A DNA stretch of 64,000 nt, taken from Polytrichum commune (lineage: Eukaryota; Streptophyta; Polytrichopsida; Polytrichales; Polytrichaceae). The translations under genes and the position numbers were made by a program. The notes beneath the pieces are model-generated. The model made no database searches, was not told the origin of the DNA, and saw nothing but the letters and a program-made list of their open reading frames with translations. The stretch lies in contig OX485807.1 in assembly GCA_950295325.1 (NCBI GenBank), forward strand, positions 39,338,440-39,402,439, in the 5' to 3' direction. Below, piece after piece: positions 65-42,411 of the stretch; position 1 is the first letter of the stretch; every line of letters starts with the position of its first letter.

Positions 65-3000
65 TCAATCAACAATGACGTTGTCACTACTAGATTCCCT
101 ACTTCCAAAGATACTCCCCTCATGGCCGCCCTCATCTGAAGAGGAATCTAAGGTATGGCATTCATTATCCACCTCTGCAAGAACATCGAAGAAGTCTAAG
201 GCACGGGGGTCATAACGTGGAGACGGGGTACTAGCTTTGCTAGGAGAAGGTTGTGCCACTAGTACCATCGCCATATCATGGGCATAGATTGGCAAAGAGA
301 ATCCCTTGGTAGGCGTACCAAACACATCCGCTCCAAGGCAAAGTCTGAAAACAAGCATGAAAATTGTAAGAAAAAGGATGGAAAATGTAAAAGCTAAGTG
401 GACAAGGAAAAGAAGCAACTTAGAAGGTCATCATACTCACTTACTGCGAGGACTTTGGCCTCGATCGCTTCAAGGCCGGCGGCCTCTTCTGCGTGCCTTG
501 TGAAGCCTGCGTGGAAGCAACAACAATGGATGGAGCCTTCACCGCAGGCTTAACACTCTTAAGTGGCTTAAGGACACGGTTGAAGGTGTCCTCGTCCTCC
601 TCAAGAGCAATGATATGGCGCCCAAGCTGCATGCATGCATGGATAGAAGTCCCTGTTGCGGAGGAAATGTTAGCAAAGGAAAAAAAAAAAAAAAACTTAG
701 AAATTGAAAACTTGGATATGATGGCAAGTGAAGTAGGACATACCAACGCCCGCATTAACGTCCACCACAACCTGTCCAATGTCCGTAGTGGCCATTATCA
801 AGGAGGACATGAAAGAAATATCTTTCTCCTGGGGACCACGCCAAGCTTTGGAGCTGTCCATGAGAGGAGTTACGGTATAATTCATAATCGCATCATCCAT
901 ATCGAGCTCAATGCCAAGAGCCTTGAGCTCATTGGCATCGCGAAGGCGGAATGACGAGTGCCGGGGCCGCTTATCAAGGTCGAATCCAATTGTTTTGGTG
1001 GCACGAACAAGTAAAACAACCTGGAAGAGGTTGGTGGTCTTGTCCACATGTTTAGCTGAATGAAGGCGAAGACGGTTGACTCCCAGCCACTCCTTAAAGA
1101 TCGTGAACCCAAAAGCAGCGAAGTGGTCTTGAATGCTCTCCTTGAAGTCACCATTGTCATCTGCATGAAAGAGGAGGAGAGCTCCATCGTCATGCAGGAT
1201 CTCATCCGCAAAATCGAAGAGCTCACCTAGAAAATCGGTATCCAATGCATTCCAGGAAGGTACACTATAGGAAGGATCGGAGACATTGGGTACAGGCAGG
1301 TTCTCCGGGATGTCGGCAATGACAAGATCAGCCATGCCCACATCTGACCTCGCAACGCCTAGAGCTCTCCGCGGATAGGAGGGTGGAAGAGAAAGAATGA
1401 AGTTGGAAACCTCCTGAAAATGACGACGTTGATGAAGGATAGAGGCATTCAAGATGCATTCTAAAACAACGGGAGGACGCCTAGCAGATGAAAGAATGGG
1501 CGGAGGAGGTGGCCTGGATAGAGTAGGAACTTCACTAAGAGATGGAGTAGATGCAACTGCCGCCTCAGGTGAAGCAGGGGGAGGGGGATTATCCTCCACA
1601 GTCTTGAGCTTCCTCGCGCGCTTCTTGAGTGATGATTCGTCTTGAGTTGCACGTTTCCTCCTCTTGGACTTCTGTGTGTTGGCCTCATCGACAGTCGCAA
1701 CAACCTCATCCGCCTCCGGAAGTTGACTGTCAAGGAGAACAACCTCATCGCTTTGAGCAGGAGGCAGGGAAGGCTCTCCACCGGAGAGCCGAATCTTCAA
1801 CTCCGCCTCCTCATCCGGTTGCCACGTCCTCTTACATTCCAAGTACCAACAACACTCGCGGAGATGCGGGAGGGAGAAGTTGCGCTTTTGAGCCGGGGAA
1901 AATATGAAGGTAGGTGAAGAGGAATCAGACCATGCATCAAGAAACGGAGGGAGCTTCTTCAAAGCCTTCTTCTTGAAGAGCTCGTGCTTGATGTACCTTG
2001 ACAACGAAGGAGTGAGGCCAATTAGCAACTTAGAAAACAAATGGTTTGAAATAAATGAGGTGAATACAAGATTTTCCAACTAACGTACTTACAGATTAAG
2101 CGCTTGACAATGTTGTCAGCGCCTTTGACATCCTTCCACCATGTCCCCTTTCCGTATATATCTGACCCTGAGAAGTGACCAATGAACGCCTTATCCCAGA
2201 GACAGATTCGCCACTTCTCCAAGTAATCCGGCAATGAATCAACTTCCACGTCTCCGTCAAGCCCACCCAAGGCATTAAGTATATCGGGTAACTCCTTGAC
2301 CGCGGCATCCTCTAGTTGTGGATAAATTCAAGGCCAAGATAAGAATTGGCACAAAAGGAAGAGTTGAAAGGTAAGGATGGATAAGGAGTATAGACGTACC
2401 CCTGCCCAAAACGCAACTTTATTGAGCCAAGGTTTCAAGGTGTCCTCACTTGCAGGACTTTTGGGAAACCGGATAGCTTCACGATTGAAACTTCCACTGT
2501 TCCACCACTTTAACCAACGGACTTTATACTCTGGCTCCACTGCAGCTGTGACAATAAGTTGCAATTTCTCCAATGTCATCTCAATCTTTTGAGAATAGTG
2601 GGCGCTATAATGCCTAGTAATCTGAAACACTTGCAATCAAAAAAGAAGGCGAAGTAAATTTGAGAATATATTCTCAGAAAGTGCTCCAAAGAATGCTAGC
2701 AGTAAGCCCTCACTTGAGACCTCTCCCATAAGCACATTCAAATCAAATCTATTTCAACTAAAAACTAACCTCTTAGGCCCCCTTCAAACCTCTCTCAATA
2801 GCACCCTAACCAGAAATTTCTCAAAATACAACCATACAAGCCCTCACAATAGCCCTCAACAATAAGCTAAATCAAATCGATTTCAACAAAATGAATACCT
2901 CTAAGCCCCCCTAAGCCTTCCCCCACAAGCACCTTAGCTAGAAAATGCGAAAAAAACCATCCCAGCCCTCACCTCAGACCAAATTGAAGCAAAAAAAAAT

Positions 3001-4729
3001 AACATGAGAGGTCCCCAAGGTGGCTACCCTGGGGCTGTCGGATCCGACAGAGGCCCAAGGCCCTCCCTTTGGAGCTCTCCCACTAGCACCTTAACCAGAA
3101 ATTCAAAAATTAAAACCATACGAGCCCACGCATCAGCCCTTTTGCAAAGCAAAATCAAATCAAATTTAACAAAAAACAAACCTCTAAGCCCCCCTTCAAA
3201 CCTCTCTCATTAGCCCCCTAACCAGAAATTCAAAAATTAAAACCATACAAACCCTTACTTCAATCCTCATCCATAACCAAAATCAAATCAATTTCAACAA
3301 ATTCGAAGCCTCTAAGCGCCCCTTCAAAGCTCTCTCATTAGCCCCCCAACCTGAAATTTCACAAAATACAACCATAGAAGCCCTCACAATAGCCCTCAAT
3401 AATAAGGACCTTTCCCATAAGGACATTCAAATTTAATTCAACCAAAACGTACCTCCTCTAGGAACTGTTTTCCAAGGGCGGGGTTTGCGATTGATTGTTG
3501 TTTGTTAAACTTGTGCCCAAGTTCCTCAGTCGTCTTCTTAATCACAACGTCCAATACCTCATCCAACCTGTTCCCAGATTGTTCCTCTGGAGGAACTTCC
3601 TCGTATATTTGGGCTGCCTCATCTACCGCATCGGCTATCTCTTGCTGAACATATATTCGAAATTGTAAGATCATGACTAAGAGTAATGAATGCGAAGTAG
3701 AGGGTTGAGGAATTTGGAGTGACTTACATTGAAAATAAAGCACACCATAAGGTCTTGGGTCAGCGGGTACCAAGGGCTCTTGGGGCCTCTGCTCTTGCAC
3801 GCTTGGAATTGCTCCTCGGTCAATAATGGCTGGTAGTAGCTAAGATCATACGAACCGTATTTTTGAATGCGGTGTAGAGTGTGTACGAGGCTAGTTTTAA
3901 CGTGAGCGGTCTGGTTAGCCCTGTTGCGGTTGAGACAAATGCCATTAGATGCCAATCAAAAAATGAAGGAAAAAACGATTTGAAAAACTAACATACTTAC
4001 TTGTTGATGTCGTGCATTGCGTTAAGGACGTCCCCACGCCCACCCGTTGTGTCGAGGACAACACATTCTGGGCAACCATGCTTCTTCATACCAGAGTGCA
4101 TCGTCATTGTGATCTGATTCGATACACTCCTTCCAAGCAAGCAAGCGGTGGTTACCATCATACACGAAGAACATACATCCACTGAGGCTCATCAAGTCCT
4201 TATCCGCGCGTAGAAAAGACTCAAACTTATCATTTTCTGCAACCCAAAGCTCTTTCCATTCACGCATGTCTTTCGGAGAAATGAATCGATTATCTCCAGA
4301 TTCATTTGTAGTAGACACGTACAAAGTGACAGACCCAACTCGGTATCCAAATTGAAATGCCGCCATGAGCTTTGTAACGTCGCTACGGAGGGTTGGGCGA
4401 ACCAATGGCATGTGAATCAACCTGCAGAGGGGGATTCTCATAGAGGACTTTTCTACCGGTTGTATCCTCATGCCCTCAACAACTGAGAAGCTATCTTTCT
4501 TTAAATTGTGGCGAATCCGATACTCCATTGCACGAACACCGACATCCGATTCTGCAGATGAGCCGCAGAGTGGCATCCCGAGTGTATGGGGTTCGCTACT
4601 ACCTGGTGTAAGCCCAATATTTTCAGCAAGTGACAACAGAGACCCTTGCTCCTTATGCTCCTCAACATTAAGGGATGACTTAGCACCATTGCGAACCCCA
4701 ACATCCAAAGACTCTCCATCCTCCACCAT
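65..4729 (-). CDS. ParB-like / DNA-methyltransferase-like fusion protein (gene 1, about 8 exons)
   Basis: Exons read on the minus strand with GT-AG borders: 4729-4001, 3920-3728, 3644-3453, 2621-2400, 2309-~2089, ~1996-744, 652-445, 344-65; roughly 1,100 residues. Exon 1 carries a ParB/sulfiredoxin-type motif (FFVYDGNHRLLAWKE). The C-terminal half has a permuted N4/N6-methyltransferase layout: a degenerate motif IV (VIADIPENLP instead of [DNS]PP[YFW]), then across the intron at 744/652 a motif I-like VVVDVNAGVG-TSIHACMQLGR followed by HIIALEEDED. ParB-methyltransferase fusions are known in bacteria and phages; both catalytic motifs here look altered, so DNA binding without methyl transfer is as likely as activity. 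The middle of exon 6 is Pro/Ser/Lys-rich with a nuclear-localisation-like KRRKR. Exon 1 needs a 1-base shift near 4100-4180: the DGNHR frame differs from the frame that splices into exon 2. The exon 5/6 junction is ambiguous. A further 5' exon may exist, because the reading frame is open just upstream of the chosen ATG. Confidence 0.6.
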
Positions 4730-7660
4730 CTCAATGATCTCTTGAGAAGCAATTAGTTACAAAGGTGAGGACCAACCAAATGAACAAAATATGCATAAGA
4801 ATGACCACTTTAAAAGGTTCCGAAGTGGAAACCCATTTGACCTCTCCCAAAAGCAAAGTCAAATCATTTGCAACTAAAACAAACCTCTCAAGCCATCACT
4901 TCAGCCCGCTCCTACTAGCACACTAGCTAGAAAATTAAAAAAAACCATACCCGTCCTCACCCATAAGCAAAGGCAAATCAATTTCAACCAAAGCAAACCT
5001 CTAAGCCCCCCTTCAAAGCTCTCCCACTAGTACCTTAACCAGAAATTCCAGAAAAAAAACCATCCAAGCCCTCACATCTGCCCGAGCCCATAAGCTAAAT
5101 CAAATCTATTTCAACAAAAAGAAAACCTCAAAGCCCCCCTAAGCCCTCTCCCACTAGCCCCCTAACCAGAAAATTCACGAAATAAAACAAAACAAGCCCA
5201 CACATAAGCCCTTTCTCAAAGCAAAATCAAATCAATTTCAACTAAAAACTAACCTCTTAGGCCCCCTTCAAACCTCTCTCATTAGCACCCTAACCCGAGA
5301 TTTCACAAAATACAACCCAAAAAGCCCTCACAATAGCCCTCAACCATAAGCAAAATCAAATCAAATTCAACAAACAACAAACCTATAAGCACCCTAAGCC
5401 CTCTCCCACAAGCACATTAGCTAGAAAATTTGGAAAAAAAACCATACAAGCCCTCACCTCAGCCCTCACCTGAGACCAAATTGAAACAAAATAAATAAAT
5501 TGAGAGGTCCCCAAGATGGCTTCCAATGGGATGTCGGATCCGACAGAGGCCTAGGGCCCTCCCTTTGGAGCTCTCCCACAAGCACCTTAGCTAGAAAATT
5601 CAGAATTTAAAACCATACAAGCCCTCACCTCAGCCCTTACCTGAGACCAAATTGAAACCCCCTTCAAACCTCTCTCATTAGCCCCCTAACCAGAAATTCA
5701 AAAATTAAAACCATACAAGCCTTCACCTCAGCCCCCATCCATAACCAAAATCAAATCAATTTCAACTAAAAACAAGCCTCTAAGCCCCCCTTCAAAGCTC
5801 TCTCATTAGCCCCCTAACCAGAAATTCAAAAATTAAAACCATACAAGCCCTCACCTCAGCCCTCATCCATATCCAAAATCAAATCAATTTCAACTAAAAA
5901 CAAGCCTCTAAGCCCCCCTTCAAAGCTCTCTCATTAGCCCCCTAACCAGAAATTCAAAAATTAAAACCATACAAGCCCTCACCTCAACCCTCATCCATAT
6001 CCAAAATCAAATCAATTTCAACTAAAAACAAGCCTCTAAGCCCCCCTTCAAACCTCTCTCATTAGCCCCCTAACCAAAAATTCAAACATTATACAACCAT
6101 ACAAGCCCTCACATCAGCCCGAGCCCATATGCAAAATCAAATCGATTTCAATAAAATGAATACATCTAACCCCCCCTAAGCCCTTCCCCACAAGCACCTT
6201 AGCTAGAAAATTTGGAAAAAAAAACATCCCAGCCCTCACGTCAGCCCAATTGAAGCAAAAAAAAATATCTTGAGAGGTCCCCAAGGTGGCTACCCTGGGG
6301 CTGTCGGATCCGACAGAGGCCCAGGGCCCTCCCTTTGGAGCTCTCCCACTAGCACCTTAACCAAAAATTCAAAAATTAAAACCATACAAGCCCTCACCTC
6401 AGCCCTCATCCATAACCAAAATCAAATCAATTTCAACTAAAAACAAGCCTCTAAGCCCCCCTTCAAACCTCTCCCATTTGAACCCTAACTAGAAATCTCA
6501 CAGAATACAACCATACAAGACCTTACATCAGCCCGAGCCCATAAGCACAATCAAATCTATTTCAACCAGATCTAACCTCTCAAGCCCCCCTTCAAAGCTC
6601 TCTCATTAGCAACTAACCAGAAATTCCAGAAAAAAAACCATACAAGCCCTCACATCAGCCCTCACCCATAAGCAAAATCAAATCTTCTTCAACCAGAACT
6701 AACCTCTCAACCCCCCTTCAAAGCTCTCTCATTTGCACCCTAACCAGAAATTTCACATAATACAACCATACAAGCCCTCACATCAGCCCTCACCCATAAG
6801 CAAAATCAAATCTTCTTCAACCAGAACTAACCTCTCAACCCCCCTTCAAAGCTCTCTCATTTGCACCCTAACCAGAAATTTCACATAATACAACCATACA
6901 AGCCCTCACATCAGCCCTCACCCATAATCAAAATCAAATCTTCTTCAACCAGAACTAACCTCTCAAGCCCCCCTTCACAGCTCTTTCATTTGAACCCTAA
7001 CTAGAAATCTCACAAAATACAACCATACAAGCCCTCACATCAGCCCGAGCCCATAATCAAAATCAAATCTATTTCAACAAAAAGACAACCTCTAAGGCCC
7101 CCTAAGCCCTCTCCCACAAGCACATTAGCTAGAAATTTAAAAAAAAAACCCATCCCAGCCCTCACGTCAGCCCTCACCTCAACCCAAATTGAAGCAAAAA
7201 AAAAAACTTGAGAGGTCCCCAAGGTGGCAACCCTTGGGTTGTCGGATCCGACAGAGGCCAAGGGCCCTCCCTTTGGAGCTCTACCACTTGCACCCTAAAC
7301 AGAAAATTCGTAAAATCCAAACATACTAGCCCTCACTTCAGCCTGTCCGAAAGCAAAGTCAAATGGATTTCAACTATAGCCAACCTCTAAGCCCCCCTTT
7401 GGAGCTCTCAAACTAGCACCCTAACCACATATCACATTCAAATCTTATTCAACCACATTATCCCACTCTACTTAAAAACAAAAACAAAAAAACCTCTCAG
7501 ACCTCACTTCAGACCGCTCTCAAAGGCACCCTCAAATTAAATTTATACCACATAATAAACATTTGCGAGGTTCTCTAGTGGGCTCTCCACGGTCTGTCGG
7601 ATCCGACAGAGCCCCAGGGCACTCACTTCGGACCTCTGTAAGGAGGACCCCAAAATAGGC
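2660..7660. repeat. Degenerate ~128-bp satellite in the introns and 5' flank of gene 1
   Basis: Diverged copies of a C/A-rich unit (AAGCCCTCACCTCAGCCC ... ATTTCAACTAAAAA ... CCCCCTAACCAGAAATT) fill 2660-3440 (the intron between exons 3 and 4) and 4780-7660 (upstream of exon 1). The anchor ACCAGAAATT recurs at 5689, 5817 and 5945, giving a 128-base period; a second homogenised run lies at 6640-6960. No open frame of note is present. The same repeat in an intron and upstream suggests it spread with, or inside, the gene 1 unit. Confidence 0.85.
3035..7609. repeat. Five copies of the palindrome (C)TGTCGGATCCGACA(G)
   Basis: Perfect 16-base palindromes CTGTCGGATCCGACAG lie at 3035-3050, 6301-6316 and 7594-7609; 14-base versions lie at 5532-5545 and 7240-7253. 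Four sit in a conserved context, GAGAGGTCCCCAAG...(palindrome)...GGCC..GGGCCCTCCCTTTGGAGCTCT. I saw this palindrome nowhere else in the window. The first is inside an intron of gene 1, the others upstream of it. A dyad of this size could bind a dimeric protein; no binding is shown. Confidence 0.85.
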
Positions 7661-9167
7661 TCAAAAATTACCTCTTATACCTCACTTGAAAACTCGCACA
7701 GGACGACCCCCATATCAGATTACCACAAAATGAATCTTTTAGACCTCACCTCAGACCTCTCCACTGGGCTACCACTGCCCTTCCCTCGAGTCTCTCCCCC
7801 TCTCCAACTCGTGGCTGCAACCCTGACCGCTGAGTGAAATCCTCGTATGCGGAGGAAAACCCTAGTTCTAAGATTTGTTGTAATGCGAAGAACGATGGTA
7901 GGTTAATGTTGCGGCAATCTTGTTCCCTTCCCCTTCCGACGGTGTCATTGTGACCACCCTTTGGATGGTCAGTGCTTCGACAGGCCCGCACTTGCTGCCT
8001 TCGCTAGCTCACGATGACTACCCCTAATTTCTAGTGCATATATGTTTTCATCGACTTGAGGCTCATACCTAGGTCTCGCAAATTCTCGATAGATCATGTG
8101 ATTTTGGGAACTCCACTTGTCTGGTCGTACCCACTCCAACTCCCTTCCTAGCAATGTCTTCACCACTCTGAGTCTGGCTTCTCCGTGTACGAGACCTTGA
8201 CCGTGTGCGGTCTGGGGAGAATTCCAATGCCTTCACTGTGTTGTTTAAGTTATCATATGGTTGTTTTGGCTGTCTCATCCTAGATGCCCTTATTTGCTTC
8301 CTGTTTGAGAAAAGTGCCTTCCTCCTCCTCTTCGCCTTTGGTTTCACTAACTCTAGCGGCTAAGACCCTGTCATGTAACTGACCCGACTTCACAAATTCT
8401 ACACTACCCTCCTTTGTGAACATCTCCCTATCAATGTATGTGTCTCGCCTGGGTTACATCTACACTTATATTCCATCCCATAACCTCCTTCACATAATCT
8501 CGATGTATGGTGATTACAGTCTAGTTGCTATAAACATATACGGAATCATAAAAAGGAACACTTATAGAATGAACACCGATGTTTAATAACATGTATTGAA
8601 ATCATCCAGGTAAGATCTAAATTTAAGGAGCATCATGCTTTATAAAAATAATGAATGATAGTACACATGACAATACATATTTCAAACTAAACTAAATGAA
8701 ATAAATAATCTGTATAGCCATAAATTGACTATCCTCTTCCAACTAAACTAACCTATTCTTGTTTCTCCGTGAATGCTCTACCCTTGCCCACTAATAAAGA
8801 AACACTTTCCTTTAGGGTGTCCCTTACATCCACTAAATGGTTCACGTGGTCTGGTGTATTAATAAGTTCGCGAGTCGGCATCCAACCTCATTGTTTGGTT
8901 TTGATATATCTGGTTTGGATTGGCATATGATGATGACTAACTTAAGTAAATGCTGTAGTGCATTTTCAATTCTTATTCACATTGCTATAATGAATCGGCT
9001 TATTATTCCCCTACTAATCCAAGTCCCCGCCGTCATTCACAGATCCCATCTTGCCATGGCCTTCTAATCACAACACTATATACACCGCCCCACTTTGTGC
9101 TAATCCTTAAGTCCATTGCCCATTTGGCCACTCCCTTCTGTGTACTCGCATTTACATTCCTTCTACA
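7661..9167. other. Interval between two divergent genes; possible eroded minus-strand exon at 7980-8350
   Basis: On the minus strand, 8347-8069 reads as a basic, Arg/Ser-rich peptide, and a second frame from 8166 to 7969 (VVKTLLGRELEWVRP...) looks coding-like; the two would need a frame change. I recognise no domain. They could be a 5' exon of gene 1 or a relic. From 8350 to 9167 I see only AT-rich sequence that should hold the promoter of the plus-strand gene at 9168. Confidence 0.3.
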
Positions 9168-12100
9168 ATGGCCACCATCCGAGCACTGCACCATTCCATC
9201 CCCCTTATGATCCCTCTTGGAGATGATGGTCTAGCCAAAGTCGCGGAGTCGTTCCTTAGTCTGAGGTTTAGATTCCACCCAGACTCAATTCATGTCGAGG
9301 AAGAGGTCTTTGATGACAACGGTGACTTGAGTCACACTGTCCTTCAGATGTCCTTTCGCATTGACGATGGTAGGGTTTGGTTCTTGCTCCCTGCAAAGTA
9401 CAAGGCCATAGGCGTCACCGAGTCGGAGATGGCCACCACTACTGTGTTGCTAACACCAGGCGTGTCCCTCACCTCCACCACGCAGGCTCCTCTTCTGGCG
9501 ACGGTCAAAAAGGAGCCCGGCATCCAAGAGGTTACCTTGCTCAGTGATGACTCTGATGATGATGTGCCACCTGCCTCTGACTTTGCCTCACTTACCCCAC
9601 CTCCATCGGAGGATCAACCCTTCATCAATCCTCTCAGGATTCCACACTCGCCTACTGTGAGTCAACCACCTACTTCCAGACCCCCAGTTCACCCAGGTGT
9701 CTCCATAGATCGTCCCAGTGTTGTCCAGCAATTGAAGTTGCTTGCAACCCGACCAGGGTCCAAGAACATCCTCAAGAGTATTGATTATGAATCTGTTAGG
9801 CATGAGAAGGTTGACTTCCTCCCATCTGTTTTTGACGGCGACGTCATCTTTGAGTTCCCTCCTCTGGGAGCTGATGCTCCCCATTCCCATGCTAGACTCA
9901 TGTTCGGAATGGACAAGCGTTTCGACGGTCATGCTTGGTGTAGGACAAAGACGTCTAACATTACCAATGATCTCGGCTTGACCTTCCGGTCCTCATGTTG
10001 TGTTGGCCATCTCCGTTGTGATAACAAGGGATGTGATTATCTCAACCGCCCCAATCGAGCCACTGACGTCAACGACACCGAATGGGAAGGCTGTACCGCC
10101 TCACCCTACTCCGTAGGAGCTGATCCCCCATCTGGGTCATCTCTCGTTTGTAAGGTCTGTAAGACACCACCCTATTGTCTTGATACTTGCCAAGCTAAGA
10201 TGTACTATGTTTTTGGCAGAGGTGACATGACCTGTGCATGCATCCATATGGATCATCACCATCACCCCGTTTCGCAAGGTGTCTGTAGAGAGTCTAAGGT
10301 CAAAATTCATGATCTCATTGGTAGAGAGGTTGAGAGGACTCCCACCGCCACCAACTCTGCCACTGCATTGGCTGCAAGTAAAGAGTTCCTGGCCAAGTAT
10401 CTTCTACGCACGGGATCTGATCCCAATAAAGTTATGGACCTGGAGTCCATGAAGTTTGTCATGGACAGGTACCAACACCTCAGCACCCCGAGTATTCGAA
10501 ACACTGTCACTTCCTTCAAGCGCATTGGGCGAGGGGGGATCATTGACAACATCACCAGACTCAAAGGTCATAGCAGTTGGCCCTATGTGCAAGAAAACAA
10601 ATTCCCAGGCCAAGGAAAGCTGTTGGAGAAAGTCTATGTGTTCAAGATGTCCGAGGTGGGCCCTGGCTCTGGAGTTGACCTTGTCAGGAGAATGCAACCA
10701 CACGGTGATTTGCAGGATGCTTGGGTCATATTTGACCATGTCAAACGTGTCAAGGGGTGGACAACCATGGTTTGCCATGTCTATGACTCGGCCTACTGCC
10801 GGGTTATGACTATTGCAGTATGTGATATGCAGTCTGAGGATGTCACGGCGCAGAGCCTTCTTTGGCATGGGCTCAATGAAGTTATGCTCAAACATGGCAT
10901 TGCTAAAGTTAACTTCAAAGGGTTCATGGCGGACAGTGCACATGCCAATTGGAATGCAGTTAGGATTATCTATGGCAGCGGTGATCCCAAGGTTCCTATG
11001 GAGTCTCGCGAGAGGACATGTCTATTGCATTGGACAGTGTCTATGGAGCGCCACACCGCCACCCACATCAAGCCCGACCTCCAACAGCAACACAAGTTGT
11101 TATGCAAGCAATACAAGGATGCCAAGACTCCCGAGCAGTCCGAGTCCCGTTATCTTGCCATCCGGGCATGGTTGTCGCGCACCTCTCCATAAGGAGTGCC
11201 CGAAACACCATGGGCACAAGGGGGACCCCGGAGTGACACCCGGGACTTGTGGCGCCATTGGTGAGAGGGCCCAAGTGATCCTAGTGTGGGTGAGGGCCCC
11301 GGGCGTTGGGAACGCCTCCCACCCACAAAGACTAGGAGGCATGAGGGTGAGGCCATGAGTTATGCGTAGCTCATGGCGTGGTGATTCTAGAAAGCTCAAG
11401 AACACCTCAATCGGAGGTGTGAGCTAGGAGTTATGGCCATTTGAGTGGGGCGCTGTCCCGGGACAGCGCCCTGTTACAGCAGTGCCTGGGAGTGATTCCC
11501 GGGACTGCCAAGGTTCAAACAGGCATAACTTCCTCAATACTTGCCCGAATGGGGCAAGTGAGGAGTCCATCGGCATCGACGTGAAACGTAGATGAAGATG
11601 GAGTGGTTGGTTGTTATGATCAGACATCATACAAGGAAGTTATGATGGTCTGAAGCTGCTGGGCGGTTCTAGGCCCAGCAGCTAAAGGAAAATGTCCACT
11701 TGGCCCCAACTCTTGGTAGAGAGACAAGAGGTTGGTTGACGGTGGGGTAGGGGCCCCGCGTGAAGTCCTAGAGGCTTATATGGGTGAGGTGGTGTGGCCT
11801 CACCCACCCGAGGCCGAACGGCACGGCCTCCATTGGCATTGGCCTAATGTGAGGCCATAGTTGCCTAGTATGGTTCGGGTTGTTGTAGTGTTGCTCCGGC
11901 AATGCGATGATCAACATAGGATTGGACTTCCATGGATGGAAGTCCACATCTAAGGAATGGTTACCGATTAAAGGGTGAGTCCCAAAAGCAAAGTAGGAGG
12001 GTTGGTTCCCTCCTATGAACTATAAGGTCCGGGGTAGGAGGAGCTAACCATTAGCATGGCGGAATGCAAATGGTTAGCGCTCGTAACCTTTGCTAAAATT

Positions 12101-12860
12101 GAAAATTGGCAAGATTGTCAAAGGGGCTTAGCAAGGGTTGCGACAATGGTGGCTTTCCTCTGGAGCTGCATCCGAGGAAGGAATCAAGGACCTTGATACA
12201 TGGCTTGCATTCTGGCATTTTCGTTACCGTCAATGGGGTGGTTTCATGCAACTAGTGAGTACCCACCCACTTTCTATTTCGCTTTTTGGTGTCAACTTTT
12301 TTTTTAGGGTTTTTTGGTTTTTTGGGTGTCAGTTTTGGCTTTTAGCGTGTTTTTGTGCAAAGCGTACTCACTACATTTTATTGACTTCTCTCAGAATTTC
12401 ACAGATTCTGAGTTGGCAGAGATGCCATCTTGCAACCTCTCTGAGACAGTCCATAACAAATGGCTTCAGCAGTCTGGAAACCGTGGCTCTGATCTATATG
12501 TTGCGACCGTGGATGATTTTGTGAGGGCGTTCATGCAATGTACGAACTACTACGCCTACTTGAAGGGTGAACGGTCTGGCACTGGCCCAGGAAAAGAAGA
12601 ACTCCGCCTTCGTGCTGCACAACGATCCGGTGACGCCAAGAGAATTGTTGCAGCCCTCGAGCACATGCCTAGAGCAGAGCATTGGTGCACCCGCAAACCC
12701 CAACTCGAAGGAGAGGAGGTCTTTGGCACCACCAAGCGCAAACTTGATATGCCCCCTGGTTCTGATCAAGATTCACATAGACCCGACAAGGTCAGCTTCT
12801 CTCATCCACGAGTGAGCACTAGGTCAACCAAGGCACGCACTGATTCCGCCACACCATCAG
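9168..12860 (+). pseudogene. Zinc-finger plus transposase-like protein, split by a solo LTR and truncated at its 3' end
   Basis: The ATG at 9168 has a good context (ACAATGG). Coding runs 9168-11172, resumes in frame after the solo LTR at 12151-12254, then an intron (GTGAGT at 12255, TCTCAG ending 12394) and an exon from 12395 cut at 12860 by an inverted LTR. The N-terminus is unrecognised. A short hydrophobic-acidic stretch (VTLLSDDSDDD, near residue 122) resembles a SUMO-interaction motif. A Cys/His region (CCVGHLRCDNKGCDY ... ACIHMDHHHHPV) matches the FLYWCH/GCM-type zinc finger linked to Mutator-like transposases. Downstream, AWVIFDHVKR and FKGFMADSAHANWNAVR fit an RNase H-fold DDE core. 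The gene is head to head with gene 1. Apart from the LTR it keeps a long frame, so the insertion looks recent. A domesticated DNA-binding protein is possible. Confidence 0.6.
11173..12145 (+). mobile_element. Solo LTR (973 bp) with 5-bp target duplication ATGGT
   Basis: Starts TGTCGCGCACC and ends GGGTTGCGACA, the TG...CA termini of an LTR. The 5-base repeat ATGGT flanks it at 11168-11172 and 12146-12150. It matches, in opposite orientation, the LTRs at 12861, 18649 and 21026, and in the same orientation the solo LTR at 57536. Removing it with one ATGGT copy restores an open frame through the host gene. Confidence 0.95.
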
Positions 12861-18646: not shown

Positions 18647-18648
18647 AG

Positions 18649-32200: not shown

Positions 32201-34033
32201 GTAGGATGTGGGACGCCGCTTTTCCCATCTCTGTCTCGGAGAGACCTTGAAGCGCTCTGAAGAACTCCCTCACCAGAGGCTTCATTTGCTTGAAGCGCGT
32301 AGTCTGGTTGAAGAGCATGCCGGTGTCGGGGTCCATGAGGTCCCCCGTCTCGTGTTTTTCAAAAACACTCTTCCATCTTGCCCATACGGAATCGGACGCT
32401 GTGATCAAATAGATTTCTCCTCTCAGCTCGTTATACTTTTTCTGCTTGTGGCTAGCATTGTCGATCGAGGAGAATTTATTGATCATTTGATATTTGAAGT
32501 CCTGCACAGGAAGACATTAGCACATGTTAGACAACACATAATGGAAAAACAAATGCAACAGCAGTTTGGGTCGAACGACCCAAACTATGAACCTGGCGAA
32601 AACATCTTAACAATTTCAGAGTTTGGGTCGACCGACCCAAACTATCAACCTGGCGATGACAACAAAACAATGTAGGAGTTTGGGTCGATCGACCCAAACA
32701 TACTCACCTCCCATTTGGGGTTCTTGTCTTTAGCATTCTCCCTTTCCTTGGGAGGCCTTCCATAAAACTCCCACACCTCCCTCGAGGCCATGATGTTTCT
32801 GATCCACGATGCCTGATAGGCCCTCTTTTTGTTCCCCATGTTGAAGAACCTGGAGATGTCGCTGAGGACCGTCTCGTTGTCCGACCAAACCACCAAAGCC
32901 TTCCAAACTTTTAGCTTCTCCTTCTGGTTGTTCGGGTCGTCCCACTCGGTCATCAGCTGGATTTTTTTCGAGGCCTCCACACTGTGCTGCCCGTCAATCA
33001 GCCAGAAGTCTCCTTTAGAGATTGCCGGCCACATCTCAGGCGTCGGCATTCTTTTCAGCCCTTGTGGCATGACAACAATTGTCTGCCTGTCGTCCTTGAA
33101 CTGCCCGCCCAAGATTTGAGCGACCATCCAGTCGACGTAGGCGTCCTCCTTGGCTCGGACGCACTTCTCTGGTGGCGCAAGGTGGCACTGCGCAATGTTG
33201 ACCTCGAATTTGAAGTCCCTGCCCATGAAGAAGCAGTGCAGGCATTTTGTCTCGAAGTTGTTGTTTATTTTTTGTATTTCGCCTGCATCCACCTTTTGGC
33301 CAGGCTTCGGCATCCGGAGCTCCGGGGAAACAGGCTCGTCAGTCATCCCCGATGACTCTCTTCCCCTCTTGGAAGGGGTCGTCTGACGGCTTCCTGATGG
33401 CGTTGGCGTCTCGCTGTCAGCCGGCGTTGTTGTAGTGCTCGTCCGTCTCGAGTCTGCAGGGACCGCCCGCGGTTTCCTCACAGTTTGTGGTCTTGAGGAC
33501 CCTGCGCCTTCTTCCGTCGTTGCCTTCCGCCTCACAGGCTGCTGCGTCTTGGGTTTGCTTTGCAGCGCCTTGTTAAGAACCGTGATAGCCTGTTTTAACT
33601 TCGTGAACCTGCTCGCAACCTTCGTGTTCGTTACACTACCATCTATGAATATGGCCTCCGGTTTTATGGTTTCAGGGTCGACGCAAGTCTCCTTGGCGTA
33701 CAGGGGGTCGAAGGGCTCGGAGAACTGGTGCATGAACATGTGGACGTTCTGCACGGCGGAGTTCTCCAGTATCACGTCTACGTAGTCCCCGAGAGACTGG
33801 ACGGACGCAACCTCCCATCCCGTCAGCGTTGCCCAGGTGTGCTGCTCGTGGGTCCCCACCTTCACCACGAATAGCAGCTTGAACATGGATGCCTTCACCA
33901 CCTGAACGGACCATGCCAAAACGACGCCATCTTTTGGGACGTAAGAATCGTCCTGTGGAGTTTCATACTCCTGCCAAAGGTGGTCTGGCGCGAGCATGAA
34001 CCACCTTTCACCTGGTCTCTTTTTAGGGGCCAT
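29248..34033 (-). CDS. ParB-like / DNA-methyltransferase-like fusion protein (gene 2), one in-frame stop
   Basis: Four minus-strand exons, all phase 0: 34033-32708, 32501-31170, 30958-29480 and 29391-29248, about 1,426 codons. Exon a ends with a ParB-like motif (GDFWLIDGQHSVEASKK). Exon b ends and exon c begins with a degenerate methyltransferase motif I (CIFNVFGGSKPIFAAM, then MSGLNIYSYVEDADV), alignable with VVVDVNAGVG-TSIHACMQLGR of gene 1 and with an intron nearly at the same place. The motif IV region reads FGMIDFRNIPG instead of [DNS]PP[YFW]. Exon c is acidic and then Pro/Gln-rich. A single TAG at 31550-31548 interrupts an otherwise open exon b; it reads as a C-to-T change of a Gln codon. 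Introns and exon c contain the TTTGGGTCG palindrome. The ATG directly follows a TTGCAG, so a 5' untranslated exon upstream is likely. Probably no longer a methyltransferase. Confidence 0.6.
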
Positions 34034-34189
34034 CTGCAATCCAAGAAATCGAAACTGTGAGTTTCGGTCGATCGACCCAAAGTATTGCAATGTGCATTTA
34101 ACATTTGGAGGATTGACCCAAACATTTACTTAATTTTCAAAGTCGTTTTAAAAGATCTTTTAGATTTTAAAGTGTGGTTTAGGTGGTCA

Positions 34190-34930
34190 CCCTGTAATGT
34201 TTGGGTCGAGCGACCCAAACATGATGAGGCTGCAAATTTAGGTATCTCAACACATTCATTTCAGACTGCAATGTTTGGGTCGAACGACCCAAACAATTAC
34301 TTAATTTTGGAAGTTCTTTTATATTTTACAATGTGGTTTAGTTCTTCTCCCTGTAATGTTTGGGTCGAGCGACCCAAATATGTTAGGCTGCAAATTTAGG
34401 TAGCTCAACCCATTCATTTCAGACTGCAATGTTTGGGTCGAACGACCCAAACAATTACTTAATTTTCAAATTTCTCTTTTATTTTACAATGTGCTTTAGT
34501 TCTTCTCCCTGTAATGTTTGGGTCGACCGACCGAAACATGTTAGGTTGCAAATTTAGATAGCTCAACCCAATCATTTCAGACTGCAATGTTTGGGTCGAA
34601 CGACCCAAACATTCACTTAATTTTCAAAGTTCTTTTATATTTTACAATGTGGTTTAGTTCTTCTCCCTGTAATGTTTGGGTCGAGCGACCCAAACATGTT
34701 AGGCTGCAAATTTAGGTACCTCAACCCAGTCATTTCAGTCTGCAATGTTTGGGTCGAACGACCCAAACATTTACTTAATTTTTGAAGTTCTTTTATATTT
34801 TACAATGTGGTTTAGTTCTTCTCCCTGTAATGTTTGGGTCGAGCGACCCAAACATAATGAGGCTCTAATGTTTGGGTCGCTCGACCCAAACAAGAGGCTG
34901 CAATGTTTGGGTCGAACGACCCAAACATTT
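34190..34930. repeat. 158-bp tandem array with two palindromes per unit
   Basis: Palindromes with centre AG (one AC) at 34200, 34359, 34517, 34675 and 34833 alternate with centre-AA palindromes at 34273, 34432, 34590, 34748 and 34905, giving 157-159-base periods and about 4.5 copies. It sits within 160 bp upstream of the first recognised ATG of gene 2, so it lies in its 5' intron or promoter. Confidence 0.95.
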
Positions 34931-35781
34931 AGTTCATTTTAGGCTGCAATTCAAATATTTATTATATTTTAATATGAGTTTGGGTCGTCTCCCCAAACTA
35001 CTGTGTTTCCAGATGCATGTTTAATGCTTGGGCAACATATACAATGCTTATGCATTGTATATGTAACAGGAACCTAAAGGGAATGATGCAAATTGTGTGC
35101 ACTGATGCAAATTGCTTACCTTGTCTTTCAAACTCTTGAAAGCTGCTCTCACAATCTGCTTCTTACAACCAGACTCAGAAACTCTGTTGTGGCACTAAAG
35201 AACAACTCTCACAAAGATCTCAGAAACACAATGAATCTCTCAAGCACCCTAAAACTTTCTCACAAACCCCCTGATTCTTGCAAACTCAGGCCTAATTTGA
35301 AAGACCTCTACCTTTCTATCACACTCCACCGTGCTCACTTCTACTCAACCTAAAATCACTCCATGCATGAATTTTACAAAACAAGTAAGGAGTTCAACAC
35401 AATAAACCGTTCCGAACTCACTCAAAGCTAACACTCTGGACCAAGAAGAGAGAATAAGAAGAGGAAGACAATAACACGAGGAATAGAATGAGAGAAGAGG
35501 AGGAGAAGCATCAGAGAGGAGGAGAGGAATGAAGGAGAAAGAAGAATGAAGGGAAGCGGCGCGACCAAGACAAAAGCAAAAGGTGCGAGAGGAAGCGCTT
35601 GGCGCGGCGCTATGGAAAGCGGCGGCGGCGTTTCCAAGAGCGGCGCTTGGCGCGGAGGAAGAGAGGAAGAAAAAGAGAGAAAGAAAAAAGAGGAGGGGAG
35701 AGAAGGAGAGAGCGGAAGGGGTCACCCTAAACCCTCGAATCCGGGCCATTAGATTGCGCCGGGCCCATCAACGGCTCAGAA

Positions 35782-35846
35782 GCCTCGCGGGCCAACACCT
35801 TGCCAGGTGTCGACACCTCCTTGGTTTAGGTGGTTGCCCGCGAGGC
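35782..35846. repeat. Inverted repeat with nested palindrome AGGTGTCGACACCT
   Basis: Arms GCCTCGCGGGC.AACACC (from 35782) and GGTGGTTGCCCGCGAGGC (35829-35846) surround the perfect 14-base palindrome at 35805-35818. It could extrude a cruciform. Confidence 0.75.
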
Positions 35847-36502
35847 TTGTGGTGTTGACACCTGCCACCCTAGGGAGATTGCCTTCCTGGTTGTCCTTGC
35901 CCCTAGGTGCGGGACATAGGAGGGCCGGCGCCTCTCTTGGCCGCCCGGCCCCGGCCTTCTAACCCGCTATTCATTAGCGGCAATTCAATACCAGTCAAAA
36001 ACCTACGTGGACTAAGGTATTCCACAAAATTAACACCATCACCAACTCATATTTTAATGGTGTTCAATTGAATGATCACCCGTTGGAATTGATAACATCG
36101 TTGAATGTAGCCATTATCGTTTTGGTGTATGAATAATGTAATTTATGGAATCATATGAGAGTGTTACAAAGTCTAAGAGGAGTAAGTCATAATTATATTG
36201 CAATCCACAAAGGCAATTACACGGTGCAATAATATAAATATGGTAACCATTCACATGGTTAACAGTTTAGGATTATGTATTGTAATTTATATGATGGTTG
36301 TTGGTAGAGGACAATGCTCTAGTCTATAATGGATACCCTAACAAGTAGCATTAGAGTGAACATTAATATATGTACTTAGAAGTTCACATTTGAAGTACAT
36401 GGGAGAAACAAATGATTACAAATGTATCTACTGCAACCCCATGGAGTTCACATATCATATGAAGTCATTTAAACATTCAGTTTGATGTTTGATGATGCCT
36501 GA

Positions 36503-36531
36503 ACCCTAAACCCTAAACCCTAAACCTTAAA
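36503..36531. repeat. Interstitial telomere-type repeat (CCCTAAA)
   Basis: Three exact CCCTAAA units and one variant. Such short tracts are common in plant promoters and at repaired breaks; they do not imply a chromosome end. Confidence 0.8.
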
Positions 36532-37339
36532 CAACACAAACCATAACTGGATGGCACATAGGTCAAATGACATGGGCCTTGGTGCTTGTAGTTTCCAATA
36601 CAAATGTATATTGTCATCACAACATCCTAATTCACAAACGTGAAAGATGGATGTGTGGTTTTTCACGAATGAACGCACTAAAGGAAATAAACGATATTGT
36701 GCTCACAAGTAGGTGATACAATATTAACCTATAACCTTGTCACCTGGTAAGAAAAGCATAAGAACTAGATTATAATGGATAGGATGTTGTTCATGTTAAC
36801 ATGTTATTTGGAATAGTGAAATATTATATATTAATTTAAAGTAGATTTCATGTTGTGAATGATATGAGGACATACCTTTTGAACTTTGCATGTTTTGCTC
36901 ACACACATTGGTAGAGTTCAAGGGACTTCACGATAGGTTCAAACATCCTTGGAAGATTGAACGTGCCAAATGTCATTTGTGGTTTAGGGTTCCATTAATG
37001 ACTTCCACATAGGTACTAGGTTATTGTCACACTTGGAGTCTTGAGGATGAAGCAATATTGGGTGCACACATTACAACACAACATATGTTCTTTTAATTAG
37101 CAGAAATTGAAAGTTGGCCAAATTATTCAAGTTTGTCATGGCATTAATTATTTGTTTTCAAAATATAAGTCCTCATGTGAGAGTCTAAATAATAGCATTA
37201 ACTATTATATTTAGTGACTTTTAGTATATGAAGTTTTATAATACATGCACATCTTTTGTCAATATATTGTTTGAAATATACCATAATGTTTGACTACAAG
37301 TAGAGTAAAACCCCTTAATAGATATAATCTTACATATTG

Positions 37340-37475
37340 TCATAGGGTTATTGGTATTCAGTGTATGCGTTCATATGTAGTGTATCAAAACCTTTATATC
37401 CTTTTTAGTTATATGATAGTTAGTGTTTGATACACTTAAAACGAACGCATACACTTCCCATTACTAACCCTATGA
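37340..37475. repeat. ~52-bp imperfect inverted repeat (hairpin, MITE-like)
   Basis: TCATAGGGTTA...GTGTATGCGTTC...GTGTATCAAAAC (37340-37391) is mirrored by GTGTTTGATACAC...GAACGCATACAC...TAACCCTATGA (37423-37475), with a 31-base AT-rich loop. Confidence 0.8.
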
Positions 37476-38096
37476 GAGTAAGTAACATTAAATGTAAACT
37501 CAAACACTAAATATCCACTATGGTGATATATGGAAGTTACATATAGGGATTTAGTATTAGTAAGGATGTGAGAAAAATATACAACAATGATAAAAGGAGA
37601 AAGGAGATGGCAATAGGGAAGGTGGTGGTGTATTCATGTATAAAACTAATTATGAAAGAGTTGAAGAATAGTGTTGACCAAGTTAGGGTGGTAACAACTT
37701 TAAATATATGTTGAATTATTCATTTGGTGGTTGGGGCAACGAAGAGCCAAGCTAAATATACATTCTCTATTATTGACAAGAAGCGGGAAATTGAGTCAGA
37801 AGGTTTGAATTAACATCCAAAGGAGACCAGGTGGGAAAGGCATCCAAAGAGGATGCCCAAAGCGGAGGCGGGTAGTATAAAGAGCCCAACCCCCCCAAAT
37901 GCTGGTTCTTTCTTTCATGTCCCAATCCTGAGATTGCTGCAAGCTCTCTAAGTTGGAGCTGTAATACACGGTTTGTATACGCTTCCATTCATGAGCAGCT
38001 AATTACAACAAGCATCTATGAGTTCAGTTGTCCCAAATAGGTTATAAATAGATTAATAGAGCATCACCCGAATAAATAGGCGGATTTTGCGGAATT

Positions 38097-39135
38097 GTTT
38101 GGGTCGGTCGACCCAAACCCAGCCTTACAGTGTGGGTGCTCTCTGTATTGAGCCAGAACCCATCCTGCCTCAAGGTTTGGGTCGATCGACCCAAACCCAG
38201 CCCTACAGTGTGGGTGCTCATTGTTGTGAGCCTGAACCCATCCTGCCTCATGGTTTGGGTCGATCGACCCAAACCCAGCCCTACAGTGTGGGTGCTCACT
38301 GTTGTGAGCCTGAACCCATCCTGCCTCATGGTTTGGGTCGGTCGACCCAAACCCAGCCTTACAGTGTGGGTGCTCTCTGTTGTGAGCCTGAACCCATCCT
38401 GCCTCATGGTTTGGGTCGATCGACCCAAACCCAGCCCTACAGTGTGGGTGCTCTCTGTTGTGAGCCTGAACCCATCCTGCCTCATGGTTTGGGTCGATCG
38501 ACCCAAACCCAGCCCTACAGTGTGGGTGCTCACTGTTGTGAGCCTGAACCCATCCTGCCTCATGGTTTGGGTCGATCGACCCAAACCCAGCCCTACAGTG
38601 TGGGTGCTCACTGTTGTGAGCCTGAACCCATCCTGCCTCATGGTTTGGGTCGGTCGACCCAAACCCAGCCTTACAGTGTGGGTGCTCTTTGTTGTGAGCC
38701 TGAACCCATCCTGCCTCAAGGTTTGGGTCGATCGACCCAAACCCAGCCCTACAGTGTGGGTGCTCATTGTTGTGAGCCTGAACCCATCCTGCCTCATGGT
38801 TTGGGTCGATCGACCCAAACCTAGCCCTACATTGTGGGTGCTCACTGTTGTGAGCCTGAACCCATCCTGCAAAAAGGTTTGGGTCGCTCGACCCAAACCC
38901 AGCCCTCTAAGTGTGGGTGCTCCCTGTCGTGACCCAAAACCCATTCTGCCAAAAGGTTTGGGTCGCTCGACCCAAACCCAGCCCCTAAGTGTGGATGCTG
39001 TCTGTAGTGAGCCTAAACCCATCCTGCCAGAAGGTTTGGGTCGCTCGACCCAAATCCAGCGCCTAAGTGTGGGTGCTCTCTGTATTGAGCCTGAACCCAT
39101 CCTCCCAAAAGGTTTGGGTCGCTCGACCCAAACCC
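38097..39135. repeat. 78-bp minisatellite, 14 units, one palindrome each
   Basis: The unit is the TTTGGGTCG palindrome followed by CCCAGCCCTACAGTGTGGGTGCTC...GTGAGCCTGAACCCATCCTGCC. Palindromes start every 78 bases from 38098 to 39113, with one 79-base step at 38878-38957. The left ten units are nearly identical; the right four are more diverged. Because 78 is divisible by three, several frames stay open on both strands, but these repeat peptides are probably not genes. The array ends about 210 bp before the ATG of the plus-strand gene at 39347. Confidence 0.95.
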
Positions 39136-39346
39136 AGCCTCTAAGTGTGGTTGGGATCTGGGTGCCGGTGTGGCCACTGGCCTTCCGAAACCTTTACAAG
39201 CCCAATGGCATAGCAGTCATATGAACTTGTATGAGCACTGAGTATTTGCAATTTTGTTTATATATGATGGTTTTTTTGTTCTTCGATTTGAACCTACAAT
39301 TTTTGTGATTTTAAGACAATGTTCAATGTTCATGTGTGTAGGCAGA

Positions 39347-42300
39347 ATGGATGGGTTTAGTGAAATAGGGGATTGGTCATCTGATGACATGGCCACTTGG
39401 CCATCTGCATCTGATGATGACCTAGACATTGTCGGGGAGGCTACTATGGCTGACAGTGCGGATGAAGATCATTTGGATTTACCTTCGTCTTCCGTACCGC
39501 AGTGTCCCATTGTTGAATGTACGGGACTTTCAAGGGCTTCGTGGGTGAATTTGGAGGTGATACTTCTTAACGATAGTGGAGTTGTTGTGGCGGAGGGGAT
39601 TTGCCGTAACACCCATCCGCAAGATTGCATTGATGAAAACCCGCTTGGCACTGAGGACGTTGGGGTTGTCATATTGGAGTCGGTCGTTCATTCCGAGGTG
39701 GATCCCACTCATAGGTTCTCCCTCCGCAGGTGGCCATTGAGGAATGTCACAATTGATGGAGTTAGCTTGCGTGAACATGAGCAACGACACATGCAAATCG
39801 AAAAGGAGGTGCAATCAAACATGCGGCCGCGCAAGGGTCAAAGAAAGTACGATACATTGGCACGTCCTGCTCCGTCTGCAACTGATTGTAAACGTCAAAG
39901 GTTGCTCGGGGAGGAGTCCATTAGAGAAGTTGCCACAAAGGATTGTTGTGTGCATCGTTGTTGCCAATTGTTTCCAAGGGATAAATTGAAGGTCATCCGC
40001 GAAGAAATGTGGCTTGGAGATTTCCGTCTAAGATCCACAAGAAAACTTGATGTCCATAGGGCGATACATGTGAATGGGACGGGTCGCAAGGTCATCACCA
40101 TTGAAAGCATAGACGTGTGTTGTAAGGCATGGTACACCATTCACGGTGTGTCGAAATCGGACTTTTATAGACAAGCTGCTTATGCCAAGGAAGGCCGCCG
40201 GTCCCGTCACCATGGTAACGTGGGTTTAAAGAAGCCTAGGGAAGCAACAAGGCAAGCAACGGCCACTCTAGCAACCATCATTGTCCCTCTTGCCGATGCA
40301 ATGCCGCACAAAACACGCACACTCACAACCGGTGAAAAGGTTGTGGAGAAAGTTCTTCCCACAGGCACAAAATGGAAAGACATATTGTTGGACGTTAATG
40401 CAGTTGGCGAGAAGATTGGGTTGGAGCCAATTTCATTGTCAAAATTAAGTGCAATCAAGAAACAAAACTTTAGCGAATACATTACAAAAAGACGAGGGGA
40501 CAAATTTGCCAGGTGCTCTAATTGCGAGAAGTTGAAGCGCCTCCGGGATGCACACACGATGGGCACCGAGTCATATGCAGCGCATCAATTGAACTATTTC
40601 AAGCACGTAAACATGCAAGAGGCACACCGTAATGATTACTACACAAATAGAGCTTTGTCCATCTCCAGGCCCTTGGAGGTTCTTACGGTCATCCATGACA
40701 AAATGGACCATGCCAAAACAGCCTCCCCATGTTTTGCAAATCGAATCAAGGCCACGGATGGGTTTTTCAAGTTGCCTGTATCGGTTACAGGTGAACTTCG
40801 AAACAATGTCATGACATATCCTAAATGTTGTTGTATTTTATTCCGTGATGTACTGGAGAACATGGATTCCTTCATAATGGTTTATTCATACATAGATGCT
40901 AATCACGTTGGGTTGGCATTGCAGGAATGATTGCACATGGACACGGTGATGTCAAATTTGCTCATTATGCTCTTGATTTGTATCCAGCGGATTCAAACCA
41001 CACGATAGGATCATTTGCAAGGCTTTTACGTGATTTAGAGAAACCACCAGCCTATTCTTGAGGATTGTTATTTGAGAACACGGGTTCAACACCTTTATAT
41101 GAAGCGGTGTTGGATGGAAAAGATGTATGCTTGCATTCGTTGCCCGAGCCACCCAATGAACCCGTGATTGCCAAGAAGTTGCCTCCAACTTTGCGTGTCC
41201 AATTGGACAATTGTGCCAAGGACAATAAAAGCAGATATGTATTTGCATATTGGTCGTTGTTGGTTGCGAAAGGCATTTTCAAGGAGGTTTTTGTGTCCTT
41301 CCTATTGGTAGGCCACACGCACGATGATATTGATGCATCTTTTGGGCGGTGGAGCATGAAGTTGCGGGAGGAGGATTTCCCTACAATTCCATTATTGATG
41401 AAGTCGTACATGGATTTGGAGAACGTTCCCGTCATCCCCCATATGATTGAGGAGGTGCCAGACTTCAAGGCATTTATAGAACCTTATATTCGAAGTGGAG
41501 CTCACCGATTGATCGGGCATACGAAGGCACAACAATTCCGCTTCTATATGCGTGACGATGGTGTCCCGGCCATGCAATACAAGTTGTTGTGCACGTCACA
41601 AGACTGGAGCCCGCCGGAGGGTCTTCTTGTGTGGCGCGTGGATGCGGATGGAAAGACCATGTTACCGGATGGGGAGCCTAGGCCTTGTAAGCCAATAGCC
41701 ATGAAGAATTTGGAGGATATTTTGAAAGGTATATCAGGCTTCATACAATATTGGGAGAGTTTGAAAATAGCGGATGTTGGCGGATCATGTTGGCATCGTT
41801 ATGGGAGTTGGATACATTATTGGACACGTGTTCGTGCCGCCTTGGCAGACCTCCACCAAGATAGCCCTCATACTTTGAGGCATGGATTTTGGCCACAAAC
41901 ACGAGTCGATGTACAAGCTTCAGAGCCTAGTCTTTTGGGAAATGGAGAGGTTCGAGAGGAGTTTGATGTGGACGACCATTACGTGGGGCCTGCTAGTAGT
42001 CGTCCCCCACCATCTTTCCGCATTGCAGTGGATTGTCATGAAGGTTATATGCTCATTTTGCGTCCTGGAGACGAGACATATGCGAAGCCAGTGTGGGTGG
42101 CAAGAGCTTTGTCCAATCCCAATTTTGTAACTTCCAGCCCTCATTTTCGACAAATACAAGTGGAGTACTATCGACCGACAGCAAGGAATGAAGATGTGAT
42201 TCGGCATTATACAGGCTGGGATACAAACCCTAACTTTCGGTGGAAGGTGGATTCTGAGCACGGTCCATCTTGGGTAGATACAGATTCCATATTCATAGCA

Positions 42301-42411
42301 TGGAAACCACGGAAACACCATAGTGGATCAGTGTCCATCCCTCAAAAGTACATAACTTTTGCAAAAGACAACCTTGCTCGGATTGCAGAAGAAGCAACCC
42401 ACGTTGAATGA
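39347..42411 (+). pseudogene. Transposase-like protein with LDNC..NKSRY..GHTHDDID signature, one in-frame stop
   Basis: The ATG at 39347 follows TAGGCAG, so a 5' untranslated exon is possible. Exon 1 runs to 40790, an intron (GTGAAC ... TTGCAG) spans 40791-40924, and exon 2 runs to the stop at 42411. The N-terminal 160 residues are acidic. A Cys/His cluster, DCCVHRCC, is near residues 199-206, and CSNCEKLKR follows. The core reads VIHDKMDHAKT, MIAHGHGDVKFAHYALDL, VQLDNCAKDNKSRYVFAYWS and FLLVGHTHDDIDASFGRW. This matches, from memory, a eukaryotic family annotated only as a domain of unknown function (DUF7869) and found in transposon-rich genomes; the spaced Asp residues suit a DDE-type nuclease. 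A TGA at 41059-41061 breaks exon 2; CGA to TGA by deamination would explain it. It stands head to head with gene 2. Confidence 0.6.

Follow-up and report, generated by a model that had tools for sequence, protein, structure and literature searches.

Transposon-encoded proteins that act on private motifs of their own elements are known from Arabidopsis, where binding, demethylation and motif turnover through tandem repeats have been reported for VANC (PMC5735166, PMC10398659). The sites of VANC21 are tandem repeats in introns and upstream regions and are absent from the element ends (PMC5735166). Likewise, accessory proteins of about 1100 aa, in which a ParB-like domain is followed by a methyltransferase (MTase) domain, are already known from large DNA transposons of algae. 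They are encoded on the strand opposite to the transposase and were noted as possible self-binding factors, and self-marking has been proposed for the Ectocarpus homologue (PMC12477816). Here we describe two modules of similar layout in a 64,000-nucleotide stretch of the Polytrichum commune genome (GCA_950295325.1, contig OX485807.1; C5:39338440-39402439 in our coordinates, hereafter the window), whose assembly comprises 408 Mb, nearly all in seven large contigs. Each module consists of a ParB/MTase-like gene (gene 1 and gene 2) head to head with a transposase-type gene (TP1 in module 1), together with a multiplied palindrome (dyad 1 and dyad 2).

The balance tips slightly towards a palindrome-based counterpart of VANC that evolved independently, in which a palindromic core with family-specific arms would be read by a ParB/dead-methyltransferase protein that co-diverges with the arms and is exchanged among near-identical as well as unrelated transposases. 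As in the VANDAL elements, a transposon-encoded protein goes together with a private short motif in noncoding tandem repeats placed as in VANC21, and the motifs diverge rapidly between families and change with the protein. Figures on gene copies, ParB and TP1 matches and site positions, here and below, hold among the matches listed. Whereas the VANC21 motif is 9 bp long, non-palindromic and found in one orientation (PMC5735166, PMC10398659), the sites described here are 14-22-bp palindromes with a shared core, and the protein is ParB/MTase-like. In the algal report the protein was described, not its sites; what differs here are the family-specific palindromes, their shared core, their covariation with the gene and the two unrelated transposase types. 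To judge from the literature searched, which included few subscription journals, the candidate cognate sites, the core-plus-arms code and the way in which the sites covary with the gene seem to be new.

Two modules with local palindromes

Dyad 1 (TGTCGGATCCGACA) has five exact copies in the window, all at 3036-7608, where 0.16 would be expected. The features of module 1 are as follows.

68-652, minus strand: gene 1 motif I exon (GTSIHACMQLGRHIIALEED) and C-terminal exon (spliced reading, profile match)
747-2027, minus strand: gene 1 methyltransferase exon, ends approximate, motif IV reading DIPE (PF01555; alignment to phage MTases)
2094-2630, minus strand: gene 1 middle exons, approximate (spliced reading)
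3036-3049: dyad 1 in a gene 1 intron (pattern search)
3438-3919, minus strand: gene 1 middle exons, approximate (spliced reading)
4022-4731, minus strand: gene 1 ParB-like exon with the G-N-H-R (GNHR) motif, frameshift near its 3' end
5532-7608: dyad 1 in the gene 1 5' flank, four sites, at 5532, 6302, 7240 and 7595 (pattern search)
9111-11189, plus strand: first part of TP1, the transposase-type gene divergent from gene 1 (high-copy repeat)
12308-12886, plus strand: TP1 later exon, 55% identical to the corresponding exon of L001 and L061

The C-terminal part of gene 1 was assigned to the beta-class N4/N6 DNA methyltransferases (PF01555, 27.1 bits against a cut-off of 26.7) and is matched by several PHROG DNA-MTase families; gene 1 shares this domain, and its position opposite the transposase, with the algal accessory proteins. 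Its motif I block resembles that of phage adenine-specific methyltransferases, for example those of Aeromonas phage LPM4 and Pseudomonas phage PseuP_222, with identity reaching 48% over 52 aa, and motif I itself is retained, with NAGVGTS aligned to NSMGSGTT of the phage enzymes. In contrast, the catalytic DLPY/DLPF of motif IV in those enzymes has become DIPE in family 1, that of gene 1, and in family 3 (described below), so that the aromatic residue of an active enzyme is missing, which suggests that catalysis was lost or changed. The ParB-like exon gave a weak PHROG ParB match (E=0.096), and a search of solved structures with the ParB exon returned chance matches only. The window copy of gene 1 carries a frameshift near aa 230, the first part of TP1 is broken by a 1-kb repeat at 11163-12145, and the left end of element 1 probably lies outside the window.

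Dyad 2 (TTTGGGTCG-NN-CGACCCAAA) is present in the window in 33 exact and two one-mismatch copies, all at 29438-39132, against 0.03 expected. It belongs to a larger unit, element 2, with the following features.

26659-26662 and again 42944-42947: 4-bp target duplication ATTG (copy comparison)
26663-42943: element 2, complete 16.3-kb DNA transposon (ends set by the C3:15.27 Mb and C6:9.46 Mb copies)
26663-26690, plus strand: left terminal inverted repeat AACACTATATTCGTTAAATTGAGACTTT, 28 bp (copy comparison; 672 places genome-wide)
28165-29010, minus strand: NIF/CTD-phosphatase-like open reading frame (ORF; PF03031, E=3.8e-15)
29438-34925: 21 dyad-2 sites (2 with one mismatch) around gene 2, in its last exon, introns, 5' UTR (untranslated region) and a 158-bp tandem array 5' of the gene
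29468-30958, minus strand: gene 2 last exon, containing the dyads at 29742 and 29811, with the dyad at 29438 just past it
31172-32501, minus strand: gene 2 second exon, 3' end approximate (copy comparison)
32708-34033, minus strand: gene 2 first coding exon, MAPKKRPG...NPKWE, with the ParB-like DGQHS motif (at least 87 scored copies)
38098-39132: tandem array of a 78-bp unit preceding the transposase gene, with 14 dyad-2 sites whose arms do not vary, unlike the remainder of the unit
39242-40930, plus strand: transposase-type gene, first large exon (77 scored copies)
41062-42411, plus strand: transposase-type gene, DUF7869 exon (PF25273, E=6.8e-38)
42916-42943, minus strand: right terminal inverted repeat, 28 bp (copy comparison)

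Element 2 is a complete, young and mobile DNA transposon, as follows from its defined ends, the 4-bp duplication, the 672 exact copies of its terminal repeat (reversed control, 0) and at least 32 copies of the gene 2 first exon with 99-100% amino acid identity; terminal inverted repeats, target duplication and recent multiplication are those of a cut-and-paste element. The C3 and C6 copies are 97-99.6% identical to it inside and unrelated outside, and two of the three copies show a target duplication (ATTG in the window, ATTT on both sides of copy A, none in copy B). On C1 we observed 35 neighbouring plus/minus pairs of terminal repeats, with a separation of 14-19 kb in 21 of them. A 4-bp target duplication is shared with Sola elements; with regard to a Sola1 transposase, the element-2 protein matches DUF7869 only, and the transposase-type genes gave no other meaningful match in Pfam or NCBIfam. 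Gene 2 of the window has an in-frame TAG near 31543, where copy A has CAG. The NIF/CTD-phosphatase-like ORF may have been captured from the host or may be a third accessory gene.

Genome-wide, exact searches found 9731 copies of dyad 2 and 658 of dyad 1 (reversed controls, 0 each). If the 672 terminal repeats are counted as about 336 pairs, there are, as a rough estimate, about 29 dyad-2 sites per pair; since this is close to the 33 of the window copy, copies of element 2 may account for most of these sites. No terminal-repeat pair encloses the first 14 dyad-2 sites listed on C1 (438-478 kb), of which two fall within an intron of a transposase gene of TP1 type (L001/L002, C1:436780-439925), so that two unrelated transposon types share one palindrome. 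In the same region, TGTCTCGG-TA-CCGAGACA sites at C1:467480-471928 stand between the dyad-2 clusters of 462-478 kb, an interleaving that suggests nested or mosaic elements.

The first-pass annotation of this stretch had recognised the two head-to-head gene pairs, and its view that the two transposase-like proteins belong to different families also holds (DUF7869 in element 2, no meaningful Pfam match at 9111-11189). It had confined the palindromes to the introns and 5' flank of the ParB-type genes: their local multiplication stands, while dyad 2 is also present in the coding sequence of the last gene 2 exon and in the 14-copy array that precedes the transposase gene. Genome-wide, dyad 2 is not confined to its own type of element either. 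The extent given for module 2 (29-42.4 kb) has to be replaced by 26663-42943, which takes in the phosphatase-like ORF.

A shared core and family-specific arms

Six further ParB-type genes of diverged sequence were compared over 2.64 kb of 5' flank each (L068-L073), a small sample per family. The motif TCGG-NN-CCGA is repeated in all six flanks (12, 9, 4, 7, 13 and 7 copies), is expected about 0 times in shuffles of the two sparsest-looking flanks and is absent from the 54 kb of L061-L066. Written in the same way, dyad 1 is TG-TCGG-AT-CCGA-CA. The dyads of the other families are GAGGCC-TCGG-AT-CCGA-GGCCTC in L072 (1917 exact genome places), TGTC-TCGG-NN-CCGA-GACA in L073 (1310), GGTT-TCGG-TC-CCGA-ACCC in L068 (161, that is 82 + 79 on the two strands for this non-symmetric pattern), its relative GGGT-TCGG-GA-CCGA-ACCC in L069 (the L068 and L069 flanks are 79% alike), TGTGTT-TCGG-TC-CCGA-AACACA in L071 and an imperfect dyad in L070. 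Reversed controls gave 0 for L072, L073 and L068, and chance palindromes were rejected on these reversed-pattern counts and on the shuffles. The exact dyad sites of the genome add up to over 13,000. The inner core is TCGG-NN-CCGA in type 1 (modules with a TP1-type transposase) and TCG-NN-CGA in type 2 (the element-2 type with its DUF7869 transposase), and the NN spacer varies freely in type 2 and is nearly fixed within type-1 families.

One more pattern, TGTTTCGG-NN-CCGAAACA, has 74 exact genome places (reversed control, 0). It marks a further family around the ParB matches at C1:53276795-53283188 and C2:66997707-67003567, where all sites read TGTTTCGG-GC-CCGAAACA. Its arms resemble those of bacterial parS, a likeness that we judged coincidental because the other families differ. 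The ParB-like motif and the many palindromic sites near the gene do recall bacterial ParB/parS; unlike there, we found a eukaryotic transposon with no partition system and no conserved 16-bp parS, the sites differing by family and lacking the parS centre. We regard this analogy as only a lead.

The arms are selectively conserved while their flanks drift. When sites were aligned on the core alone, the pairwise difference of outer arms versus flanks was 0.01 versus 0.31 in L072, 0.05 versus 0.22 in L068 and 0.03 versus 0.63 for dyad 2, with a weaker contrast in L069, L070 and L071. Within the 78-bp array of element 2, arms differ by 0.00 across the 14 units, the rest by 0.20 and the NN spacer by 0.34; these units were chosen by exact arms, and none is missing, the spacing being 78-79 throughout.

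The dyad covaries with the ParB gene and not with the transposase. Of 32 clusters with several sites, 16 have a listed ParB or TP1 match in their neighbourhood, against about 0.4 expected, and each ParB copy near listed dyads is accompanied by exactly one dyad family, none by two. On C1 below 32.03 Mb, all ParB copies at least 83% identical to gene 1 have dyad 1, compared with none of the eight at 50% or less. Pairing with a transposase was assessed for type 1 with 144 ParB and 64 TP1 matches and a distance of up to 25 kb: 26 ParB matches have a TP1 match within reach, against 1.3 expected, and 25 of these pairs are divergent. In nine pairs the transposase is 91-95% identical to TP1 and the ParB gene 42-45% identical to gene 1 (over about 150 residues of one exon), from which the ParB-type regulatory gene appears to be turned over or swapped far faster than the transposase. 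For type 2, 28 of 32 among the youngest gene 2 copies, which number at least 32, have a transposase-type exon nearby, always divergent.

Copy A of element 2 is inserted in the 64-bp repeat array of another module (L061/L063, family 3). In this module a ParB-MTase gene (40% identity to gene 1) and a transposase (48% identity to TP1) stand head to head, and the module's intron holds about 22 units of the 64-bp repeat, with more in the 5' flank.

A mobile unit of ParB-type protein, own palindromes and transposase, as put forward in the initial annotation, is partly supported, by the divergent partners of both types, by the six sampled families with their local palindrome and by the recurrence of the TCG...CGA core that it had noted in the two window dyads; family 3 and the occurrence of dyad 2 in a second transposon type are exceptions.

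Proposed function and competing explanations

With modest confidence, and by analogy with VANC, we favor a reading in which each module is a large DNA transposon whose ParB/MTase-like protein binds its own palindrome and has an anti-silencing function. Such a transposon would carry two divergent genes, one of transposase type and one for a ParB-like/methyltransferase-like regulator of bacterial or phage ancestry. The regulator, probably a symmetric dimer, would recognise the palindrome of its own family, which tandem duplication would have amplified in the 5' region common to both genes, in introns and, in element 2, in a coding exon. Conserved contacts may read the inner core and diverging contacts the outer arms, which would give each family its own address; within a family, the private palindrome looks like a self-recognition code confining the protein to its own DNA. 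Dense binding over promoters and introns would most likely keep the element copies transcribable, opposing host silencing. VANC is the closest working model, since the sites avoid the ends and fill introns and upstream regions as tandem repeats. Probable sites in at least six families would offer natural variation enough to read a protein-DNA specificity code from sequence, as well as a test of whether targeted anti-silencing arose more than once. They also bear on how an element can acquire a new address and still function, and on whether a lost methyltransferase activity became a DNA-reading module.

Several points weigh against this proposal. The anti-silencing role is argued by analogy. 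The ParB fold is suggested by motifs, and AlphaFold2 models of it reached a mean pLDDT of about 35, giving no usable structure. Gene 2 matched neither a methyltransferase nor a ParB family in the domain libraries, and its direct alignment to gene 1 (E=0.06) was unusable; the domain order first described as common to both genes therefore stands for gene 1, where PF01555 follows the GNHR exon, and for gene 2 comes down to motifs placed by eye (DGQHS, then FGGSKP). In family 3 the partner gene and the intronic array are present, yet a perfect dyad is lacking; dyad 2, occurring in a second transposon type, is not wholly private genome-wide. The covariation between dyad and ParB gene was checked on part of the copies, and the youth of the copies could explain some of the arm identity between copies, though not that within an array.

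Among the alternatives, the one that survives best, although we consider it unlikely, is self-marking, in which an active N6-adenine or N4-cytosine methyltransferase would modify its own palindromes and so tag the element DNA as self. This idea, already put forward for the Ectocarpus homologue, is consistent with the PF01555 domain and its kept motif I, and with symmetric dyads that contain CpG (and GATC in F1 and F9). The aromatic residue of motif IV stacks on the flipped base, and its loss in the DIPE of families 1 and 3 speaks against an active enzyme, as does gene 2, which is more degenerate still.

Less probable again is a role as transposition co-factor, with the dyads serving as accessory sites for assembly or regulation of the transpososome, like the TnpA sites of Spm/En. 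The sites are indeed dense and element-specific, and the transposase gene has some of them immediately 5' of it, but element 2 has no dyad 2 within 2.7 kb of its left or 3.8 kb of its right end, promoters, introns and exons are where the sites cluster, and transposases that are nearly identical are accompanied by different dyads. Because the dyads avoid the element ends, an end-binding role was rejected. We give just as little weight to autoregulation only, in which the protein would repress or activate the divergent promoter and have no anti-silencing role: the concentration of sites between the divergent genes and in first introns agrees with it, but few sites suffice for a promoter operator, and in element 2 about 33 are spread across 10 kb, some of them in introns and in the last exon. 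Very improbable, finally, are palindromes that are by-products of tandem duplication without a protein partner, or host-factor sites, for although nearly all of them lie in tandem repeats, which can spread any sequence, their arms are invariant while the remainder of the units drifts, the same core recurs in unrelated repeats of different families, and the dyad follows the ParB gene rather than the transposase.

Other features of the window

No Rfam family was matched anywhere in the window, and no other comparable dyad stands out there, save those in a dispersed repeat of about 1 kb. This repeat, often with two inverted arms (foldback-like), occurs five times (11163-12145, where it interrupts the TP1 gene, 12860-13835, 18649-19619, 44800-45413 and 57535-58508) and also in the flanks of other loci. 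A local direct duplication (17244-18040 and 19619-20414) is 98% identical, with its copies 2.37 kb apart and 56-bp tandem repeats within. A 72-bp repeat at 45406-48264, with about 29 units in open frames, looks like a leucine-rich-repeat coding array, and a 129-bp tandem repeat has eight copies at 61366-62414. Outside the window, a TTTAGGG telomere array was found at the start of C1.

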